Source: Gloeocapsa sp. DLM2.Bin57
GTDB taxonomy: Bacteria > Cyanobacteriota > Cyanobacteriia > Cyanobacteriales > Gloeocapsaceae
Direction of reading: 5' to 3'
Length of the DNA: 37,724 bases
NCBI GenBank assembly: GCA_007693955.1
Contig: RECR01000105.1
Coordinates: 1-37,724, forward strand
Shown: one piece after another, positions 27,252 through 37,563 of the stretch
Layout of the letters: every line of letters starts with the position of its first letter
Numbering within the stretch: the stretch's first letter is position 1
Position numbers and translations under genes: made by a program
Notes under the pieces: model-generated
What the model was told of the DNA's origin: nothing
Seen by the model: only the letters and a program-made list of their open reading frames with translations
Database searches by the model: none

Positions 27252-30200
27252 TTATTCTCCTTGGTTATTGTTCAAGGAACGTTCAGCCAGATATTGATAC
27301 ATTTGCCAACGGTGATTGACGTCTGCTTGTGCTTGTTGTAGGAGGTGTTTAGCTGCTTCTGGTTTGGTTTTAGTTAGCATCTTGAAGCGGTTTTCTTGAT
27401 ACATAGATTCTTGCACTGGTTTTTTGGGCGATCGCATATCGAGATGGAGAGGATTTTGTCCAGTTGCTGCTAAATCGGGGTGATAGCGATAGAGTAACCA
27501 GCGTCCACTTTCTACTAAAGCTTTTTGATGATTCATCGCGGTTTGCATATTGATACCGTGAGCGATACAGTGACTATAAGCGATAATCAGGGATGGTCCA
27601 TCGTAGGCTTCTGCTTCTAGGAAGGCTTTAAGTGTATGTTCGTCTCTTGCTCCCATAGCTACACTAGCTACATAAATATTACCGTAGGTCATGGCGATTA
27701 AGCCTAGGTCTTTTTTGGCTGAGGGTTTACCACCTGCGGCGAATTTGGCTACAGCTGCTCGTGGTGTGGCTTTAGAAGATTGTCCCCCTGTATTGGAGTA
27801 AACTTCGGTATCCATAACCAAGACGTTGACGTTATAACTACTCGCGAGAACGTGATCTAAGCCACCATAACCGATATCATAAGCCCAACCGTCTCCCCCC
27901 ACAATCCAGACTGATTTTTTGACTAGATAGTCTGCTACTGCTAGGAGTTGTTTAGCTTCGGGAGAGTTGATGGTGTTTAATGTAGCTTTAAGTGCTGCTA
28001 CTTTGTCTCGTTGTTCCCAGATATCTGCTTCGGTTTTTTGGGGGTTAGCCAGAATCTCGGTTACTAGGTTATCACCGATTGCTCCTGCTAGTTTTTGCAG
28101 GAGTTCTGTTGCGAATTCTTTTTGTTTATCTATAGAAACACGGAAGCCTAAACCAAATTCGGCGTTATCTTCAAACAAACTATTTGACCAAGTAGGACCC
28201 CTTCCCTCGGCGTTTTGTGTCCAAGGAGTGGTAGGAAGGTTACCACCGTAGATGGAAGAACAACCCGTAGCGTTGGCAATTAAAGAGCGATCGCCAAATA
28301 ATTGACTCAGTAATTTTACGTAAGGTGTCTCGCCACAACCTGCGCAAGCTCCTGAAAATTCAAATAATGCCTCTTGTAGTTGTTGTTCTCTGACTTTTTC
28401 GGAATTGAGGAGACGGCGATCGGGATTGGGTAAGTTTAGGAAGAATTCCCAATTGGCTTTTTCTGTTTCCCGTATGGGTAACTGCGCTTCCATATTAATC
28501 GCGCGAAGGGATGGTTGTGATTTATTTTTCGCAGGACATACATCTACGCAAACTCCACAACCTGTACAGTCTTCGGGAGCTACTTGAATGGTAAATTGTT
28601 GTCCTGACCAATGTTTATCTTTAGCTGCTGTCGCTTTAAAGGTTTCCGGAGCGTTTTCTAGGTTACTAGGTTCATAAACTTTACCCCGAATCACTGCATG
28701 AGGACAAACTAAGATACATTTACCACACTGTACACAGATATCAGGGTCCCAAACCGGGATAATATCGGAGATATTGCGTTTTTCCCATTGGGTTGTACCC
28801 GTGGGGTAAGTTCCATCACAGGGAAGCGCACTTACTGGTAAATCATCTCCTTCCCCAATTAGTATTTTTCCTTCTACTTCTCTGACGAATTCTGGTGCTT
28901 CAGGGGGAACTGCAGGAAGTCTGCGTTTAGTAGAATCCGGGACACCTATGGTTACTTCAAAAAGGTTGTCTAAGGTTTGATCTACGGCGTCTAGGTTCAT
29001 TTTTACGATGCTTTGACCTTTTTTCCCGTAGGTTTTTTGGATCGCTTTTTTAATCGCGGCGATCGCTTCTTCTTTGGGTAGTACTCCTGCTAGGGCAAAG
29101 AAACAAACCTGCATCACGGTGTTTATCCTTCTTCCCATCCCACTTTCTTGAGCTACTTTCCCTGCGTCTATTACGTAAACTTTAAGATTGCGTCGTACTA
29201 TTTGCTCTTGAATTTCGATAGGGAATTCTCCCCACACTGTATCGGCGCTATAGGGACTATTTAAGAGAAAAGTTGCTCCAACTGCTGCGTGTTTGAGTAC
29301 GTCTAGTTTTTCTAAGAAACTCCACTGGTGACAACCGATAAAGTTGGCTTGATTGATTAAGTAAGTAGAGCGAATTATGTCTGGACCAAAGCGTAAATGG
29401 GATACGGTGACTGCTCCTGATTTTTTGGAGTCGTAAACAAAATAACCTTGTGCGTAGTTATCTGTTTCTTCTCCAATAATTTTGATGGTATTTTTATTCG
29501 CTCCTACTGTACCATCTGATCCTAAACCATAAAACATCGCTCTAACTACTTCTTTAGGTTCTATGTCAAAATCAGCATCGTAACTTAAGGAGGTATGGGT
29601 TACGTCGTCATTGATACCAATGGTAAAGTGGTTTTTGGGTTTATCGAGAGCGAGATTGTCAAAAATACCCTTGATCATCGCTGGGTTAAACTCTTTTGAG
29701 GATAAACCATAACGACCTCCGATAATTTTTACTTTACTTTCGCCAAATCCTATCTCTAGATAAGCGTTGACTACGTCTAAATAAAGTGGATCTCCGGCTG
29801 CTCCTGGTTCTTTGGTACGATCTAAAACGGCGATGGTTTTTACTGTTTTGGGTAATGCTGCGCTTAACCTTTCTTGATCTAGAGGTCGATATAATCGGAC
29901 TTTAAGTACCCCGACTTTTTCTCCTTGATTGGTGAGATAATCTACGGTTTCTTGGACCGCTTCACATCCTGATCCCATTAAAATTACCACTCTTTCTGCG
30001 TCTGGTGCGCCATGATATTCGTAGAGTTGATATTCTCTTCCTGTGATTTCGCCAAATTTAGCAAATGCTTTAGCTACAATATCTGGACAAGCATCATAAA
30101 AGGGGTTGGCGCTTTCTCTTCCTTGAAAATAAACGTCGGGATTTTGCGCTGTTCCTCTGATTACAGGACGATCTGGTGTTAAGGCGCGACTACGATGAGC

Positions 30201-30806
30201 TAAGATTAAGTTTTCATCGATCATCTCCCTTAATTCGTCGTCTTCTAAGACTTCTATTTTCTGGACTTCGTGGGATGTTCTGAATCCATCGAAGAAGTGA
30301 ATAAAGGGTATTCTTGATTCTAAACTCGCTATTTGAGCGATCGCTGCAAAGTCTTGGGCTTCTTGTACTGATGCTGAACATAATAGGGCAAAACCTGTGG
30401 ATCTTACCGACATTACGTCACTATGATCCCCAAATATTGATAGTGCTTGGGCTGCTAGCGATCGCGCTGCTACATGAATTACACAGGGGGTTAATTCCCC
30501 TGCTATTTTGTACATATTGGGAATCATTAATAACAACCCTTGGGATGCTGTAAAGGTTGTGGTTAATGACCCTGTTTGTAGTGCTCCGTGTACTGCGCCT
30601 GCTGCACCACCTTCAGATTGTAATTGTACTACTAAAGGAATTGTCCCCCACAAGTTTTCTCTTGCTTCTGACATCCAACTATCTGACCATTCTCCCATCG
30701 GTGAAGCGGGTGTGATGGGGTATATTGCCACTACTTCATTTAGTTTATACGCTATTCGTGCCGCTGCTTCATTAGCGTCCACGGTTGTAAATTTTTTAGT
30801 TTTCAT
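27252..30806 (-). CDS. nifJ: Pyruvate:ferredoxin (flavodoxin) oxidoreductase
   Basis: Converts pyruvate and CoA to acetyl-CoA and CO2, reducing ferredoxin or flavodoxin. With the ATG at 30806 it has 1184 residues; a TTG three codons upstream (30815) would add MTI. All domains are in one chain in the usual order: pyrimidine-binding domain I (YPITPASPMGEWSD), domain II, the gamma-like domain, two [4Fe-4S] clusters (CVQCGKCILVCP and CTGCGVCVDVCP), and the TPP domain (GCAGCGETPYVKLL, GGDGWAYDIGYGGLDH). It is linked to fermentative or photomixotrophic metabolism as well as nitrogen fixation, so it is not proof of diazotrophy. It is co-transcribed with the dehydrogenase-like gene. Confidence 0.98.
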   Translation of the reverse strand: MKTKKFTTVDANEAAARIAYKLNEVVAIYPITPASPMGEWSDSWMSEARENLWGTIPLVVQLQSEGGAAGAVHGALQTGSLTTTFTASQGLLLMIPNMYKIAGELTPCVIHVAARSLAAQALSIFGDHSDVMSVRSTGFALLCSASVQEAQDFAAIAQIASLESRIPFIHFFDGFRTSHEVQKIEVLEDDELREMIDENLILAHRSRALTPDRPVIRGTAQNPDVYFQGRESANPFYDACPDIVAKAFAKFGEITGREYQLYEYHGAPDAERVVILMGSGCEAVQETVDYLTNQGEKVGVLKVRLYRPLDQERLSAALPKTVKTIAVLDRTKEPGAAGDPLYLDVVNAYLEIGFGESKVKIIGGRYGLSSKEFNPAMIKGIFDNLALDKPKNHFTIGINDDVTHTSLSYDADFDIEPKEVVRAMFYGLGSDGTVGANKNTIKIIGEETDNYAQGYFVYDSKKSGAVTVSHLRFGPDIIRSTYLINQANFIGCHQWSFLEKLDVLKHAAVGATFLLNSPYSADTVWGEFPIEIQEQIVRRNLKVYVIDAGKVAQESGMGRRINTVMQVCFFALAGVLPKEEAIAAIKKAIQKTYGKKGQSIVKMNLDAVDQTLDNLFEVTIGVPDSTKRRLPAVPPEAPEFVREVEGKILIGEGDDLPVSALPCDGTYPTGTTQWEKRNISDIIPVWDPDICVQCGKCILVCPHAVIRGKVYEPSNLENAPETFKATAAKDKHWSGQQFTIQVAPEDCTGCGVCVDVCPAKNKSQPSLRAINMEAQLPIRETEKANWEFFLNLPNPDRRLLNSEKVREQQLQEALFEFSGACAGCGETPYVKLLSQLFGDRSLIANATGCSSIYGGNLPTTPWTQNAEGRGPTWSNSLFEDNAEFGLGFRVSIDKQKEFATELLQKLAGAIGDNLVTEILANPQKTEADIWEQRDKVAALKATLNTINSPEAKQLLAVADYLVKKSVWIVGGDGWAYDIGYGGLDHVLASSYNVNVLVMDTEVYSNTGGQSSKATPRAAVAKFAAGGKPSAKKDLGLIAMTYGNIYVASVAMGARDEHTLKAFLEAEAYDGPSLIIAYSHCIAHGINMQTAMNHQKALVESGRWLLYRYHPDLAATGQNPLHLDMRSPKKPVQESMYQENRFKMLTKTKPEAAKHLLQQAQADVNHRWQMYQYLAERSLNNNQGE

Positions 30807-30821
30807 AATCGTCAATGTTTA

Positions 30822-31018: not shown

Positions 31019-31867
31019 TTAATACTTGTCTAAGTGAGAATAAATATCTGAGTATTTGATAGTATTTACTTTTAAGCGCCATTTTCTGAGATTAAAGCTT
31101 AAAGTATTGCTAATTTTATCTTGTATTTTTTCTAATATATTTCTTTGGGGATGTTCATACTTTCTTTGTTCTTCTAAATATTTGTACAATTTATCAATTA
31201 CTAGTTGATGATTTTGCTGTTTTACTAACTCTATTCTATCTTTAAATATCAGAAGTTTTTTATCATAATCATGCTCTATTGGTACTCGAGCTAAAGCTGC
31301 TGCTAACCCAATAATATTACCTTCTCCTGCATAATATCCCTTTAGTTCAAAATATCCTGCTAAAATTTCCCATTGTCTAAAAAATTCCTGAATATTTTCA
31401 TGTCTAGTTACATAAAATAAAAATTCCTGAATAAACTTTACTTGGCTAATATCTAGTGATGATTTTTGACAAATATTTCTAATTAAATCAAGTTTTTTGT
31501 CATCGGTTTTATTGATTTTAGCAATGTTACAAGAACTATAAGCGATAATACCAGGTACAAAATTTAAATTTTCAGGTACTGTTGCTAACAAGCGCATATC
31601 TGCATCTATATAGATACAAGACTCATATAGATTCAGAGATTTGGCAATTACGAACCTTTTATCATTATAAAATTTACAACTCTGGGGATAATGTAAGTAA
31701 GGAATAACATTGGGTTTATTCTTAAATTGTTTAGGGTTATCTGTGAGAACGATAAAATTAATTTCGGGAGAATATTTAGCTAGGTCATCCGCTAATAATA
31801 AAGCTAAGTTTATATATCTAGATCCTATTGCTAAAGTACAAAAACAGAAATTGTTAAATTTAACCAT
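31019..31867 (-). CDS. Putative GT-A fold glycosyltransferase
   Basis: 282 residues. CTLAIGSRYINLALLLADDL at the start, the INFIVLTDNP strand and a DxD motif (DAD, 88-90, in CIYIDADMRLL) are the order seen in GT-A nucleotide-sugar transferases of the GT8 kind. GYYAGEGNIIGLAAALA (about 177-193) would be the acceptor or sugar loop. The C-terminal 60 residues are basic and helical. It is the last gene of the minus-strand block, 5 bp after the exonuclease-ATPase gene. Donor and acceptor are unknown. It is AT-rich compared with the core genes. Confidence 0.55.
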   Translation of the reverse strand: MVKFNNFCFCTLAIGSRYINLALLLADDLAKYSPEINFIVLTDNPKQFKNKPNVIPYLHYPQSCKFYNDKRFVIAKSLNLYESCIYIDADMRLLATVPENLNFVPGIIAYSSCNIAKINKTDDKKLDLIRNICQKSSLDISQVKFIQEFLFYVTRHENIQEFFRQWEILAGYFELKGYYAGEGNIIGLAAALARVPIEHDYDKKLLIFKDRIELVKQQNHQLVIDKLYKYLEEQRKYEHPQRNILEKIQDKISNTLSFNLRKWRLKVNTIKYSDIYSHLDKY

Positions 31868-31872
31868 AATGA

Positions 31873-34206
31873 TTATTTAACTTGTCCTAACATTTTTTTG
31901 ACTAACCAAGAATTATGATAATATTTAACCCAAATATCTATGGCGGTTTTTAAATCAATTTCTAAATCGCGGTTATTAATATCAGTGATCATCTTATACA
32001 TTAACTCAAACTCGATTCGAGCTTCTTTTTCCAGTATAATTAACTCAGCATTGCTACTCTGGGTAAAATTGGTTATTTCTCTGAGACCAACTTTACCGTT
32101 AATAGCGGGTTGACGGCGATCGCGTATTAAAATAAACTGTAAATGAGGATGATTAACTAATAATTGATTAAAATTTTTCATCCGTGGGGTAAAACGACTC
32201 CCGTTTTCGTTTAGAAAAGCTAGTACATTTTCTTGTTTACCATGACTGATTACTAGGTTTTCGGGGATAACTAGTTTTCTTAATCTTAAAACTGTTATTT
32301 TACCAGAATACCGTTTTAAAAATGCTGTTGCTATTTGCCTTAATTTACCAATCTCATCACTATCATCGATAATTTTAATATTATTATAGTCTTGAGACAG
32401 TATTTCCTTCTCTGTTTCCCAATAATTTAATAAGATATGATCTTCAGTTTTGTTAATCAGAGGTATGGTTTCTGGGATAGTTACTACTGCTTCCGTATCT
32501 AATAATTGCGCTAACTGTAATTTTATTTGGTGTAACTCTGTTTCTAGCTGGTTTAGTCTTTCTTCATAAGTTTTGATTGGTTTAAAATCTAATTGTGTTT
32601 GATTGTTTTGAGGTAATGTGATACCATGGACTCGATAACGGTAATAATCTGCTGCTCTATTAATAGTCTTTCTGATAGAATTTTGCTGTAAAATATCTTG
32701 AATATCTTCAGTAGTAAATATTTCAGTTAAAGTTATTCCAGTAGATGCTAATTTAATCTTTAAAATTTGCTGGAGTTGTTCTGGGTTAATAGGGGATAAA
32801 TTAATGATAGACTGAGATATTCTGTCAATCACGGAAGGATCAAAAAATTCTTGAAAATGTGACCAGCGATCGGGAAATAAATTAAGGATAATTAAACTAT
32901 TGGGGACATGAGTACAAATATCTTTAATCGCTTCACCAAAACTGAGTAAAATTTCCTGATTATAGGGGAGACTAAGAGATTCTAGTTGATCAAAAACAAT
33001 AATTAAAGGTTCATCTAATAAGGAAAGTTTTCCCAACACAGAAATAGCTTCTAAAGCGAAGTTTTCCTGACTTAATTCTTGTGACCATTTGTCTAATCCT
33101 AAACGTTTTAATTCTGCATCCTTTAATTCATCAGCAGCTAACCAACGGGTTACTAAGATTTTATAGTTTTTATCTACGTAGCTACAATATTTAACGATTC
33201 CTTTAATGATATTTAGAGAATAACCACTACCTCCATGTTTTTTACTCCACCAATTTGTCAAATATTTTTCTATTTTGGGGAAGTTTTTTCTTTTGTCATA
33301 AATGCTAAATGGATCAGCTTCTAACTCTGTTAACAAATTGAGCTTAGTTGGAGTTGTGCAATGTTTTTCTAAGCGCATAAAGTTAACAAAAGTTTTGGCT
33401 AAAAAATATTCTAGTTGTGAGTAATTAGTCTTAGGAACTGGTTCAACTAAAGACTCTAATATACGCGTATAAATATGAAATAAAATCGACTTAGCATTAT
33501 TGGGTTGACGTATAAATAAGAGACGATTAGTTGCTAAAGTTTTTTGGGCTAATCGCATAATTAAATGAGTTTTACCCGAACCTGGTTCACCAATAATGAT
33601 AGCACCTTTACTCTGATGATTTGGCTCTAATTTAATATCTGTTAAAATAGAAGTTAGGGTGTTAAACTCTTCTTGATAGATTTGAGAATAATCAGGGTGT
33701 TGTTGAAAGGGTGTATCAACGCGATTACTACTAAAAGGATTGAGAGTATTTTGAAACATTTTTTCTCTAATTTTCTGATATAGTTGATAGGTGAATTGGG
33801 CATCATATTTAGCTGAATGAGCCAGATTAAGATTAAATACTCGACCGTTAACTCTTAAATCTAAATACTGACTCAAGTATTGTAGGGAGTAGCTATCAAG
33901 TCTTGGAAAATATCTCTTAGCTAGTTGATAAGTACAATCTGTTTTGACCTTGGGAAAAGATTGACCGACTTGTTTAAAACTCTGGGATAGTATTTGTAGA
34001 TCGTGTTGAGCGGAATGAAAAACTAATAAGTGATTAGGGATAATTTCCTTGATATCCTCCACAATCTCGGCAATTGATTTAACTCCAAAGGTAGATTTAT
34101 TATAAGCTTCATAAATCAAGCGACCATTTTTATTTATGATCGCGATTTCATTTATTTCCTGTTTACCTTCGGTATCAATGACTAAAAAGTTAGGAGACAA
34201 TAACAT
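31873..34206 (-). CDS. DEDDh exonuclease fused to a P-loop ATPase
   Basis: 777 residues, unlike any single family I can name. Residues 1-150 are a DnaQ-type 3'-5' exonuclease with all five catalytic residues: D11 and E13 (VIDTEG), D69 (HSAQHD), H130 and D135 (HSAKYDA). Residues about 175-540 are an AAA-like ATPase: Walker A GEPGSGKTH (206-214), Walker B LIIVFDQLES (401-410), and an RWLAADELKDAELKRLGL segment like those of ORC/Cdc6-like and BREX-type bacterial ATPases. A short coiled coil (about 550-582) leads to an unassigned C-terminal domain (about 600-777). There is no membrane segment. It could process nucleic acid ends in an ATP-dependent way. It starts 4 bp after a broken gene and 5 bp before the glycosyltransferase. 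Confidence 0.85.
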   Translation of the reverse strand: MLLSPNFLVIDTEGKQEINEIAIINKNGRLIYEAYNKSTFGVKSIAEIVEDIKEIIPNHLLVFHSAQHDLQILSQSFKQVGQSFPKVKTDCTYQLAKRYFPRLDSYSLQYLSQYLDLRVNGRVFNLNLAHSAKYDAQFTYQLYQKIREKMFQNTLNPFSSNRVDTPFQQHPDYSQIYQEEFNTLTSILTDIKLEPNHQSKGAIIIGEPGSGKTHLIMRLAQKTLATNRLLFIRQPNNAKSILFHIYTRILESLVEPVPKTNYSQLEYFLAKTFVNFMRLEKHCTTPTKLNLLTELEADPFSIYDKRKNFPKIEKYLTNWWSKKHGGSGYSLNIIKGIVKYCSYVDKNYKILVTRWLAADELKDAELKRLGLDKWSQELSQENFALEAISVLGKLSLLDEPLIIVFDQLESLSLPYNQEILLSFGEAIKDICTHVPNSLIILNLFPDRWSHFQEFFDPSVIDRISQSIINLSPINPEQLQQILKIKLASTGITLTEIFTTEDIQDILQQNSIRKTINRAADYYRYRVHGITLPQNNQTQLDFKPIKTYEERLNQLETELHQIKLQLAQLLDTEAVVTIPETIPLINKTEDHILLNYWETEKEILSQDYNNIKIIDDSDEIGKLRQIATAFLKRYSGKITVLRLRKLVIPENLVISHGKQENVLAFLNENGSRFTPRMKNFNQLLVNHPHLQFILIRDRRQPAINGKVGLREITNFTQSSNAELIILEKEARIEFELMYKMITDINNRDLEIDLKTAIDIWVKYYHNSWLVKKMLGQVK

Positions 34207-34210
34207 TAAT

Positions 34211-34600
34211 TCAGCGTTTAAATTTGAACATATAGCCTAAAAAACCTAGATTTAACAGTACAGAAGATAATAATAAGGAAGGTTCTGGTATAACATTACT
34301 AGGTTGTAATTCAATAATTTCGCCAACTCCTGTAGCAAAACCATTGTTAGCTATATAAATAGTATCATTTTCAGTTATTGCTAAACCAGTAGGAAATTGT
34401 AAACCTTGTATATTTATTCTTGTTTTCGTTCCATTGGTATCTATTCGCCAAAGATTACCTGTCAAATCTCCTGGAAGAACATTACTAGCATACTCTAAAG
34501 CATAAAGGTTACTATTACTATCAAAAGCGACGTCAATCAAATTAGTAATATAAATGCTATTATCAGGAGCGATGGTCATTCCTGTGGGCACAGATTGCAT
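34211..34600 (-). pseudogene. Remnant of a ScyD/ScyE-like PEP-CTERM beta-propeller gene
   Basis: 129 residues with NHL-type repeats (VPTGMTIAPDNSIYITN, LIDVAFDSNSNLYALEYASN, FPTGLAITENDTIYIANNG) and a C-terminal sorting signal, VIPEPS, then a hydrophobic helix and FKFKR. Family members are about three times longer, with a secretion signal that is missing here. The first repeat seems to jump from SIYITN straight into LIDVAFD, suggesting an internal deletion. Stop codons lie just upstream in the same frame. Without a signal peptide it could not reach the surface, so it is probably a decaying remnant. Confidence 0.7.
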
Positions 34601-34637: not shown

Positions 34638-35453
34638 TTATCTTACCGTTTCTGCTTGTCCTAAAGGAGAGAAGCGTATCTCTATTCTCCTTCTAGAAGC
34701 GTCTGCTTGGCGACTAGGATTAGCAAATTCTCCCGAAGGTAGTAGTAATTGTGCTGCTGAATAAGCGCGGAATTGTATCCCTTGCAGACGTCCTTGTTGT
34801 TGCAATGCTTGTAATTCTTTGACTACTTCTAGAGCGCGCATTAAGCCTAAATCTGCGTTAGATCCTGGGTTTAATTGATTGGAGGGTTTGTCTCCTTGTG
34901 CGACTGCTTCTAGATTAGTATCTAGGTTACTATTACCTGCAACTGTTGCTTGTCCGTCGGTGTGTCCAATAATTTCTACAATATAAATATCTCTTTGTTG
35001 TGTAACTGCTTCGATACGCTCGACTAAATCCGTACGTATATATTCGCGCAAACCGTTAGATAATTCGGCGCTTCCTGAGTCGAACTGGAATTCTCCGGAG
35101 TTTTCAATGACGACTACTGGTGGTGCTAATTTAAGGGTTTCTATGTCTGTGTTTAATGTGTCTATTTGTGTATTGAGTCTCTCGGTTTGTCTTTCAAGTT
35201 GACTAGTGCGTCTTGCGGCGTTTTGTAATTCTCGATTTTTTGCTCTTAATTCTCTTTGTAAGTCTAAGACTTGTTCTTCTGTTTGAGTCAGACTTATTTC
35301 GGTTTCTTCTGCTGTAGATTTAAGAAAAAGAGATTTAAATAAGGCTAACAGCAAAAACAGACTAATAATCATAAAAGCATTAGACATTAAGTCCGTAAAA
35401 GAGGGCCAAATATTGAGGTTTTCTGCTTCTTGCTCTCTGTAGCGTTTACTCAT
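34638..35453 (-). CDS. OmpA/MotB-like motor partner (ZorB-like)
   Basis: 271 residues. The N-terminus NIWPSFTDLMSNAFMIISLF (14-33) has an aspartate (D21) just before the single membrane helix (about 24-44), placed like the proton-carrying Asp of MotB, ExbD and ZorB. A coiled coil follows (about 55-107), then a peptidoglycan-binding OmpA-like domain (about 113-265) with EFQFDSGSAEL, IIGHTDGQA and SRRRIEIRF. It overlaps the upstream channel gene by 8 bp, so the two proteins are made together. The architecture fits a proton-driven stator anchored to the wall. Confidence 0.85.
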   Translation of the reverse strand: MSKRYREQEAENLNIWPSFTDLMSNAFMIISLFLLLALFKSLFLKSTAEETEISLTQTEEQVLDLQRELRAKNRELQNAARRTSQLERQTERLNTQIDTLNTDIETLKLAPPVVVIENSGEFQFDSGSAELSNGLREYIRTDLVERIEAVTQQRDIYIVEIIGHTDGQATVAGNSNLDTNLEAVAQGDKPSNQLNPGSNADLGLMRALEVVKELQALQQQGRLQGIQFRAYSAAQLLLPSGEFANPSRQADASRRRIEIRFSPLGQAETVR

Positions 35454-36600
35454 AGTTTTTCTTGCTTTGTTGTAATTGCAATATCAGACCGTATTTTTCG
35501 TTGATGCTGCTCATTTCTTCGGTTAAGCTAATTATTTTTAAGATTGATTTCTGTAATAATTCTAATGTGTCTTCAATGGATTTGGTGGATTTGTTCAGGA
35601 TTAGTGCTGATTGAGAGAATTGATTCTGGGCGATCGCCAAATCACTTACCGCTGAAGAGAGTTTCTCAGAGAATCTACTTTTATCTAATATACTTACTGC
35701 TTGATTAAAAGTTCCTGTACTTTTAGCCATAGCTAGGGTAGATTGTTGCAATTCTTGATAAGCTTGTTCTGCTGCTGTAGTGATTTGTTGATTTTGAGCG
35801 ATCATTTTTTCTAGGGGTTGAGTGACGGAATTAGTCATCACTCTTTCTAGGGTTGTCCCAAATTGTTCGGAAAATATGTTCAGAAATAAACCAAATTCGC
35901 TGACTAGTTTTTCTACTCCCTCTTGTAAACTTTTACTAGAAGTATTGGGTATCGTTAACCAGTAAACGTTATCTAGATAATCTTCTAGAGAGTTTAATAA
36001 GGTTAATTTAGCTACGTTAGTATTCCACAAAAAATTAATCGTCGTCAGTATAGCGCTGCAAAATACAGCTACTAAACTACTAATAAAAGCGATACCCATA
36101 CCCTGTAGGGGTTTTTCTAATCCTTGAATTAGACTACTTACATCGGTTAAATCACTTTGAGTGAGGGTTTGACTTAAATTAGCTAAATTAATAGTTATCC
36201 CCAAAAAGGTTCCAAATAAGCCAAAAGAGAGTAATAAATTGGGTAAATTGCGGGTTAGATGGTCTATAGCTTCACATTGTAAAGGAATACCCAACAAGCG
36301 AAATCTTTCTTGACTATACGTACCATCTACTAAAGCAGTGGTGTTGATATCCTGTCTTTGTGCACTAGCGTTTTGTACTCTTTGTTCTAGATAATTAATA
36401 ATCAGAGGAGTTTTGCTTAGGGTTTCTCCTCGCAATAACTTGCGTAGTTTAGCAGCTAAAACAGTTAGGTGTCTATGGAGAGCAAAACGTAATAAAATAG
36501 CAATTATACTAGGGATAATTACTAAAAAAACAGTCAGCCATAAAAGATAGGGGGGTAACAAATTAAATCCCCTCATCACAGTTTCTAGGAATTCAAACAT
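35446..36600 (-). CDS. MotA/TolQ/ExbB-type proton channel with helical tail (ZorA-like)
   Basis: 384 residues. Membrane helices are at about 16-40, 119-140 and 166-188. The last two match the MotA/TolQ/ExbB pore: LLSFGLFGTFLGITINLANL, then LQGMGIAFISSLVAVFCSA. Residues about 200-384 are an unbroken amphipathic, Gln/Ser-rich helical tail, like the long intracellular tail of ZorA rather than the short ends of TolQ or ExbB. With the OmpA-like partner it should form a pentamer-dimer proton-driven motor. It starts 3 bp after phoH. Flagellar use is excluded by lineage; gliding or envelope roles remain possible. Confidence 0.85.
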   Translation of the reverse strand: MFEFLETVMRGFNLLPPYLLWLTVFLVIIPSIIAILLRFALHRHLTVLAAKLRKLLRGETLSKTPLIINYLEQRVQNASAQRQDINTTALVDGTYSQERFRLLGIPLQCEAIDHLTRNLPNLLLSFGLFGTFLGITINLANLSQTLTQSDLTDVSSLIQGLEKPLQGMGIAFISSLVAVFCSAILTTINFLWNTNVAKLTLLNSLEDYLDNVYWLTIPNTSSKSLQEGVEKLVSEFGLFLNIFSEQFGTTLERVMTNSVTQPLEKMIAQNQQITTAAEQAYQELQQSTLAMAKSTGTFNQAVSILDKSRFSEKLSSAVSDLAIAQNQFSQSALILNKSTKSIEDTLELLQKSILKIISLTEEMSSINEKYGLILQLQQSKKNYE

Positions 36601-36603
36601 AGT

Positions 36604-37563
36604 TTATAAATTAGGGTGTTGTTCATAAGCTGCTACTATTTTCTGTACTAGAGGGTTACGCACCACATCAGCTTGAGAAAAATGACAGAAAGCGATTCCT
36701 TCTACTGATTTGAGGATTTTTTCGGCTACTACCAATCCCGAGTCTTGATATTTAGGTAAGTCAATTTGGGTAATGTCTCCTGTAACTACCATACGAGAAT
36801 GGTTACCTAAACGAGTCAAAACCATTTTTAATTGAGCAGGGGTAGTATTTTGAGCTTCATCAACGATAATAAAAGCATTACTGAGGGTGCGTCCTCTCAT
36901 ATAAGCTAAAGGCGCTACCTCAATTTTACCCCGTTCCATCAAATCTGGTATTTTCGCGGGGTCTATGAATTCATAAAGAGCATCATAAAGGGGACGTAGA
37001 AAGGGGTCAACTTTTTGTTGTAAATCTCCTGGTAAAAAGCCCAGTTTTTCTCCCGCTTCTACCGCAGGTCGAGTCAGAATCAGGCGATCGCACTCTTCCT
37101 TTAATAAAGCTTGTACAGCGATTACCGCAGCTAAAAAGGTTTTACCAGTTCCGGCAGGACCAATGCAAAAAGTCAGATAATGTTTTTGAATAGCTTGGAG
37201 ATATTGATGTTGGCGAAAAGTTTTCGCTCTAATTACTTCACCTCGTCGAGTTTTAGCGATAACTTCAGCTTGGATAGCTTGATATTCTGTTTCTCTTCCC
37301 GTATCTAAAGCATGAAAAGCCGTTAATAAATCCGATTCATTGATTGATTGTCCTTCCTTCCAGGAGGATTCCAGAGAATTAATCACCTCAAGACATCTAG
37401 TCACCGCTTTAGGTTTACCCATCACTAGTAATTCTTGACCTCGTAAAACCACTTGAGCGCCGGTATGACGAGTAAGGAAGTAAAGATTTTCTTGTTGATT
37501 TCCAGCCAGGGCGATCGCCGCTTCTATACTAGGTAATTCTATTCTTTCGATCGATTCAGTCAT
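36604..37563 (-). CDS. phoH: PhoH-family ATPase
   Basis: 319 residues. An N-terminal KH-like region (about 25-75) precedes the ATPase domain with Walker A GPAGTGKTF (135-143), Walker B FIIVDEAQNTTPAQLKM, and the TRLGNHSRMVVTGD and IDLPKYQDSGL segments diagnostic of PhoH. Bacterial PhoH proteins are linked to RNA metabolism and ribosome maturation; in some bacteria they belong to the phosphate regulon. It starts the minus-strand block and ends 3 bp before the channel gene, so these genes may share a promoter. Confidence 0.95.
   Translation of the reverse strand: MTESIERIELPSIEAAIALAGNQQENLYFLTRHTGAQVVLRGQELLVMGKPKAVTRCLEVINSLESSWKEGQSINESDLLTAFHALDTGRETEYQAIQAEVIAKTRRGEVIRAKTFRQHQYLQAIQKHYLTFCIGPAGTGKTFLAAVIAVQALLKEECDRLILTRPAVEAGEKLGFLPGDLQQKVDPFLRPLYDALYEFIDPAKIPDLMERGKIEVAPLAYMRGRTLSNAFIIVDEAQNTTPAQLKMVLTRLGNHSRMVVTGDITQIDLPKYQDSGLVVAEKILKSVEGIAFCHFSQADVVRNPLVQKIVAAYEQHPNL

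Follow-up and report, generated by a model that had tools for sequence, protein, structure and literature searches.

The window analysed here, the whole 37,724-nucleotide stretch of contig RECR01000105.1 from Gloeocapsa sp. DLM2.Bin57, encodes on its minus strand a protein of 777 residues that starts with a DEDDh exonuclease and continues with an Orc/Cdc6-type AAA+ core, a probable coiled-coil linker and a C-terminal domain with a probable restriction endonuclease (REase)-like fold (Table 1). The plus strand over the same positions contains many stops and no open frame. The architecture is real and well conserved, and its domain order is well supported: the open reading frame and the structure search bear out the DnaQ-type exonuclease fused to an ORC-like ATPase that the first-pass annotation had proposed. 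That annotation knew of no characterised protein with this order, and at full length the protein matches no characterised family, housekeeping families included, in Pfam, NCBIfam, PADLOC, PHROGs or the sequences of the PDB. Members of the family carry generic annotations only ("exonuclease domain-containing protein", "AAA family ATPase"), and our literature search found no description of an exonuclease-Orc/Cdc6 fusion.

Table 1. Features of the fusion gene, with positions in the window. Fractions give the sequences that keep a residue; those out of 35 refer to aligned full-length homologues (~40-63% identity), and all others come from a wider, non-redundant set.
Feature	Positions	Strand	Basis or conservation
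Whole fusion gene	31873..34206	-	777-aa ORF and translation; homologues in ~one-fifth of the genomes sampled from the same order and in further phyla
DEDDh (DnaQ/RNase T) 3'-5' exonuclease domain, residues 1-154	33745..34206	-	Pfam RNase_T; structure matches
Exonuclease motif I, D11-T-E13	34168..34176	-	D11, E13 35/35; wider set 72/72, 71/72
Exonuclease motif II, D69 (HSAQHD)	34000..34002	-	35/35; wider set 73/73
Exonuclease motif III, H130-SAKY-D135	33802..33819	-	35/35 each; wider set 74/74, 74/76
Orc/Cdc6-clade AAA+ core with helical lid, residues 156-530	32617..33741	-	Structure matches
Walker A GEPGSGKT, residues 206-213	33568..33591	-	K212 89/89
Walker B LIIVFDQLES, residues 401-410	32977..33006	-	D406, Q407, L408, E409 89/89
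R462, putative arginine finger	32821..32823	-	84/89
R512, putative sensor 2 arginine	32671..32673	-	89/89
Variable linker, residues 531-585; long helix predicted at 547-570, a probable coiled coil	32452..32616	-	AlphaFold pLDDT, alignment
C-terminal alpha/beta domain, residues 586-777; probable REase-like fold without PD-(D/E)XK	31876..32451	-	Structure search

On the same strand, positions 34211-34600 encode the C-terminal part of a propeller protein of the ScyD/ScyE family; this piece stops 4 bases short of the fusion's start codon and looks like a remnant. Further upstream lies a minus-strand cassette of PhoH, ZorA-like and ZorB-like genes (34638-37563; the ZorB-like product has an OmpA-type C-terminus), which is kept in both same-genus genomes compared (L202 and L203). 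Five bases downstream of the fusion, a minus-strand gene for 282 residues (31019-31867) belongs to no Pfam family; a YIDADM stretch and its overall appearance suggest, by eye, a GT-A-type glycosyltransferase. Beyond it are a full-length pyruvate:ferredoxin oxidoreductase (27252-30815, minus strand) and, downstream, a dihydroorotate-dehydrogenase-like gene; the oxidoreductase had no match in two same-genus genomes, in searches run without a positive control there. A promoter scan around the fusion gene performed no better than shuffles.

The assignment of the N-terminus rests on concordant evidence from sequence and structure. Pfam RNase_T matches it with an E-value of 1.8e-8 and 35.5 bits, above the 24-bit cut-off, and NCBIfam returns PolC/DinG/DnaQ-type exonucleases. 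The AlphaFold model of residues 1-154 retrieves PolC, DnaQ, DinG and RNase T with Z 16-17.8 and rmsd 2.3-2.8 over ~140-150 residues, among them PolC (17.8), the DnaQ domain of S. thermophilus (17.4) and RNase T (16.8). The DxE, D and HxxxxD residues of the DEDDh superfamily are present on an RNase H-like fold. The exonuclease domains of PolC, DnaQ and S. aureus DinG have this fold and all five catalytic residues as well, but they are paired with a polymerase or an SF2 helicase, whereas the window protein pairs its exonuclease with an Orc/Cdc6 AAA+ module. Of the protein's parts, the exonuclease domain alone matches the candidate PDC-S48 models of PADLOC.

The ATPase is less visible to sequence profiles. 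Pfam AAA_16 matches it below cut-off (1.4e-5), and the NCBIfam Orc1/Cdc6 models match weakly (E ~5e-4 and 2e-3) and in the P-loop region only. A full-length AlphaFold model built from 34 homologues has a mean pLDDT of 85, and its residues 151-539 match Aeropyrum pernix Orc2 (1w5t, Z 15.7 over 250 residues), P. aerophilum Cdc6 (1fnn, Z 15.7 over 240 residues) and TnsC (7mcs, Z 14.8). Because of these matches to Orc/Cdc6 ATPases the label "ORC-like" is correct, and the core combines Walker A and B motifs with the helical lid typical of the clade. The C-terminal winged helix of canonical initiators is absent from the model: the lid is followed by the linker helix and the alpha/beta domain, and the last residues form just two short helices. 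The linker itself varies in sequence among homologues and has low pLDDT at 536-544 and 570-586. All the catalytic and Walker residues listed by the first-pass annotation are where it placed them, and D11, E13, D69, H130, D135, G206, K212, D406 and E409 are each conserved in 35/35 full-length homologues. Its view that both catalytic sites are intact is thus borne out by residues that are (nearly) invariant, and an invariance so far beyond chance points to two enzymes under selection.

The C-terminal domain (about 600-777), which the first-pass annotation had left unassigned, now has a probable fold. Its 194 residues, modelled separately from 83 homologues (AlphaFold, pLDDT 95.4), match mostly restriction-endonuclease folds: XisH (Z 6.1), BspD6I (6.0), EcoT38I (5.9), Can2 (5.7), and also Avs4, Cap4, FokI, BamHI and Hjc, the matches as a whole spanning Z 6.1 to ~4.5. 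The best value, 6.1, is under the trust level of 8 of the structure-search tool. No conserved acidic or lysine residues of a PD-(D/E)XK motif occur on strands 650-655 or 658-664 in the 83 sequences, and the model is therefore that of a probable inactive REase-like domain. Its conserved polar residues (D615, D617, D/E618, K621, R675, N678, N680, R695, D696, R730 and E734) suggest a binding role. Avs4, Cap4 and the CR-effectors likewise unite a nuclease fold and a regulatory domain in a single defence protein, but there the REase is the active effector, whereas in the window protein the catalytic motif is missing from the REase-like domain, which leaves the exonuclease as the one active nuclease that can be recognised.

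The REase-like fold emerged from the structure search before the published account of the Orc/CDC6-iREase-HerA/FtsK group (PMC10853773) was consulted; profile comparisons point to this group as the nearest known kin. In hhalign, residues 151-751 align over 538 columns (E 5.1e-21) with ATPases of 680 residues encoded in a cyanobacterial three-gene operon; the C-terminal domain alone reaches only E 0.053 (probability 1%), and within the full profile it aligns in register. The operon (L071-L089, e.g., L074:5987-11442) encodes a protein of ~270 residues with no recognised function, the Orc/BrxC-like ATPase and a protein of 870 residues that combines a DEDD exonuclease, a PD(D/E)XK nuclease and an FtsK/SspH-like part. 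In one genome (L078), several paralogues of the ATPase follow one another. We discarded an exonuclease in the first operon gene, which belongs to no Pfam family and whose apparent match through a stop codon is unsupported by profile search. The operon matches the neighbourhoods presented in the main text of PMC10853773 (2024). There, the ATPase is of the Orc/CDC6 type and bears an inactive REase between its AAA+ part and a wHTH domain at the C-terminus. It occurs with an active REase, a DndG-like wHTH gene and HerA/FtsK, to which a 3'->5' exonuclease is optionally fused, and these neighbourhoods are predicted to counter invaders. That main text uses the word "exonuclease" once, for the HerA/FtsK fusion, and does not mention an N-terminal DEDDh fusion.

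Compared with the systems as that text describes them, the window protein has in common the AAA+ domain of the Orc/CDC6 clade followed by what is probably an inactive REase-type domain, and a DEDD-type 3'-5' exonuclease is part of both. It differs in that its exonuclease is DEDDh and sits at the N-terminus of the ATPase rather than on HerA/FtsK, and in being a single gene without HerA/FtsK, active REase, C-terminal wHTH or DndG-like wHTH partner. A search for the operon FtsK protein matched all five operon-carrying genomes used as control; it found nothing in the genome of the window, and 11/15 family-carrying genomes yielded no full-length match. The operon relatives also match BrxC_BrxD and SspF weakly. 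BrxC, BrxD and SspC are described as members of the Orc/Cdc6 clade in the relevant passages of PMC12839542 and PMC10853773; BrxC/BrxD, SspC/SspF and DndF are ATPases of defence systems (BREX, phosphorothioate) that work in multi-gene operons, and unlike for the window protein, a fused DEDDh exonuclease is described for none of them in those passages. The fusion falls within a recently predicted class, in which its architecture is apparently undescribed. A point missing from the first-pass annotation is that the architecture does not stand alone: the family is widespread and has predicted Orc/CDC6-REase-HerA/FtsK kin.

In a survey of genomes of the same order, 78/293 gave matches, and ~62, about one-fifth of those sampled, carry the family, some as fragments; this count was made by hand from the table and leaves out 16 genomes with only weak, ~28%-identical relatives of the ATPase. 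In a class-level draw, 37/390 cyanobacterial genomes have the family. Most copies are chromosomal, and some are on plasmids of Nostoc, Tolypothrix, Calothrix and Synechococcus elongatus. Outside cyanobacteria, an alignment-based query of contigs, where a single-sequence query had found nothing, identified the family in Thiomargarita, Thioploca, Beggiatoa-like bacteria, Campylobacterota and one Desulfobulbaceae bin. Some of these carriers are MAGs, so single cases may reflect contamination, which is unlikely as a general explanation given the number of independent non-cyanobacterial cases; cyanobacteria and giant sulfur bacteria have been reported before to share genes (PMC6390638). We found no viral or phage copies in a scan that can miss distant ones. 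On the tree the phyla stand apart with few changes, and inter-phylum transfers therefore look few and old. This bears on the early question of whether the fusion spreads by transfer: it is found beyond one lineage, by events that seem rare and ancient.

The exonuclease co-evolves with the rest of the protein and was lost at least twice. Distances in the exonuclease, AAA+ and C-terminal parts correlate strongly (r 0.87, a value reached in 0/500 shuffles), and the tree shows two changes of the exonuclease state, one in Beggiatoaceae and another in Xenococcaceae, which together indicate that the fusion is old. The question that the first-pass annotation raised about its history is thus answered by an old fusion with co-inherited domains, qualified by these later losses. 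The count of losses leaves out exo-less sequences explained by contig edges or frameshifts (L122, L127, L144, L147, L148 and L154), and a further cyanobacterial pair without exonuclease (L066/L067) is not on the tree. The exo-less paralogues of Beggiatoaceae form a clade from 12 genomes, of which eight (G622, G623, G624, G626, G627, G630, G633 and G634) also hold the exo+ form, at a separate locus. Each of the 11 sequences that certainly lack the exonuclease retains the Walker and arginine residues. The coexistence of the two forms suggests, without proving it, a hetero-oligomer.

Chromosomal neighbours of the family are not conserved, and many are housekeeping genes (ClpC-like, aspartokinase-like, acetate kinase, TatC, ArgJ). 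In 20 family-carrying genomes, the 114 nearest genes showed no PADLOC enrichment relative to 114 random ones, both having similarly few and mostly generic matches, in a crude comparison that rests on the best 25 families listed; PADLOC-DB has no homologue of the fusion as a system protein. The few plasmid copies, in contrast to this chromosomal picture, adjoin defence-type genes: a methyltransferase with toxin-antitoxin, helicase and GIY-YIG genes; a helicase and PLD operon, DISARM-like by annotation; DUF87 and NurA; and DUF262/DUF1524 genes. On a small plasmid of Synechococcus elongatus PCC 11801 (L175, 15001-18967), a family member is followed by genes with TIR and macro domains, possibly a compact defence cluster.

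We hold, with evenly balanced confidence, that the protein is a single-polypeptide, ATP-controlled 3'-5' exonuclease, most likely directed against invading DNA, and a fused offshoot of the Orc/CDC6-iREase ATPases that is independent of HerA/FtsK. The Orc/Cdc6 core, probably oligomeric through its conserved arginines and the coiled-coil linker, would load onto DNA; the catalytically dead REase-like domain would bind DNA or a partner; and ATP binding or hydrolysis would bring the exonuclease to 3' ends of the nucleic acid so captured, presumably DNA rather than RNA, whose degradation would limit the invader. The ATP-driven, end-directed degradation or nucleic-acid sensor suggested by the first-pass annotation likewise stays an inference. 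This reading of an ATP-controlled exonuclease draws on 1) the conserved active sites on DEDDh and Orc/Cdc6 folds; 2) the REase-like fold without motif and the hhalign match to ATPases whose operon resembles the predicted counter-invader neighbourhoods; 3) the patchy, cross-phylum distribution and the plasmid copies beside defence-type genes; and 4) the correlated domain distances and the lack of a full-length HerA/FtsK partner in the protein's own genome and in most family-carrying genomes searched. Against it count the absence of chromosomal defence enrichment, the housekeeping neighbours, the lack of a PADLOC-DB system homologue and of phage-linked copies, and the weak C-terminal match (Z 6, and the poor E-value of the domain by itself). 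A more elaborate form of the idea is tentative and, taken whole, on the unlikely side: a stand-alone anti-invader machine in which DNA is caught by an Orc/Cdc6 assembly, either ring or filament, that passes 3' ends on to the exonuclease, with the dead REase as reader and, in giant sulfur bacteria, an exo+/exo-less hetero-complex. Eukaryotic ORC, which mixes different subunits, offers an analogy for the latter.

The chromosomal neighbourhoods without defence signal are the main reason why a role in genome maintenance keeps its standing, even if we find it rather unlikely. An accessory nuclease whose AAA+ part loads on broken or stalled DNA, and whose exonuclease trims 3' ends in repair or replication, would fit a solitary gene amid housekeeping neighbours that is kept in many members of the same genera, that lies in two related genomes (L046, L048) ~100 bp upstream of, and co-directional with, an apparent dnaN, and whose hosts, cyanobacteria and giant sulfur bacteria, are known polyploid groups. 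But a family present in so small a share of the class-level genomes does not have a core function, some copies are on plasmids beside defence-type genes, and the sliding-clamp motif QxxLx[LF] that the window protein shows at 536-541 (QTQLDF) is not conserved among homologues. The P-loop and Walker B regions weakly resemble nSTAND/AAA_16 models, and the structural matches include RNase T and other DEDDh ribonucleases, which could instead point to a nucleic-acid sensor or abortive-infection protein, a STAND/Orc-type switch with an RNase T-like exonuclease acting on host or phage RNA. This is improbable: sensor repeats are absent, the exonuclease is closest in sequence to PolC/DinG/DNA polymerase types, and the nearest relatives of the ATPase have DNA translocase genes next to their own.

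The Orc/Cdc6 fold, and a gene that is divergent from an adjoining ParA on two Synechococcus elongatus plasmids, would also suit an Orc/Cdc6-like Rep in plasmid replication initiation or maintenance. We give this little credence since both plasmids already hold an annotated CyRepA1-family replication protein elsewhere; moreover, most copies are chromosomal and the initiator winged helix is absent at the C-terminus. CyRepX, with no Pfam/SMART domain by sequence and a DEXDc/HELICc-like structural match (PMC10899382), was set apart from the window protein, with its RNase_T and Orc-type AAA+ domains, by that description and not by sequence. The ZorA/ZorB-like genes directly upstream on the same strand bring to mind a Zorya-like system, of which the fusion is hardly conceivable as a component. 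Operon partnership is largely refuted by synteny within the genus: the PhoH-ZorA-ZorB cassette of another genome ends without the fusion gene, and in a third genome the fusion gene is 5 kb off, behind oppositely oriented genes. Homologues elsewhere lack ZorA/ZorB-like neighbours. The cassette itself is probably not Zorya but an envelope pair of the MotA/MotB type, since its scores are far below the NCBIfam Zorya cut-offs and no effector (zorC/zorD or zorE) was seen among the neighbours scanned.

Replication initiation is what Orc/Cdc6-type ATPases are best known for, and predicted defence systems reuse them together with nucleases. Because the family described here combines loader, exonuclease and degenerate REase-like domain in one protein, a single gene suffices to ask whether loaders of this kind guide the destruction of DNA, and the exo+/exo-less pairs of giant sulfur bacteria provide a natural test for a hetero-oligomeric ATPase.
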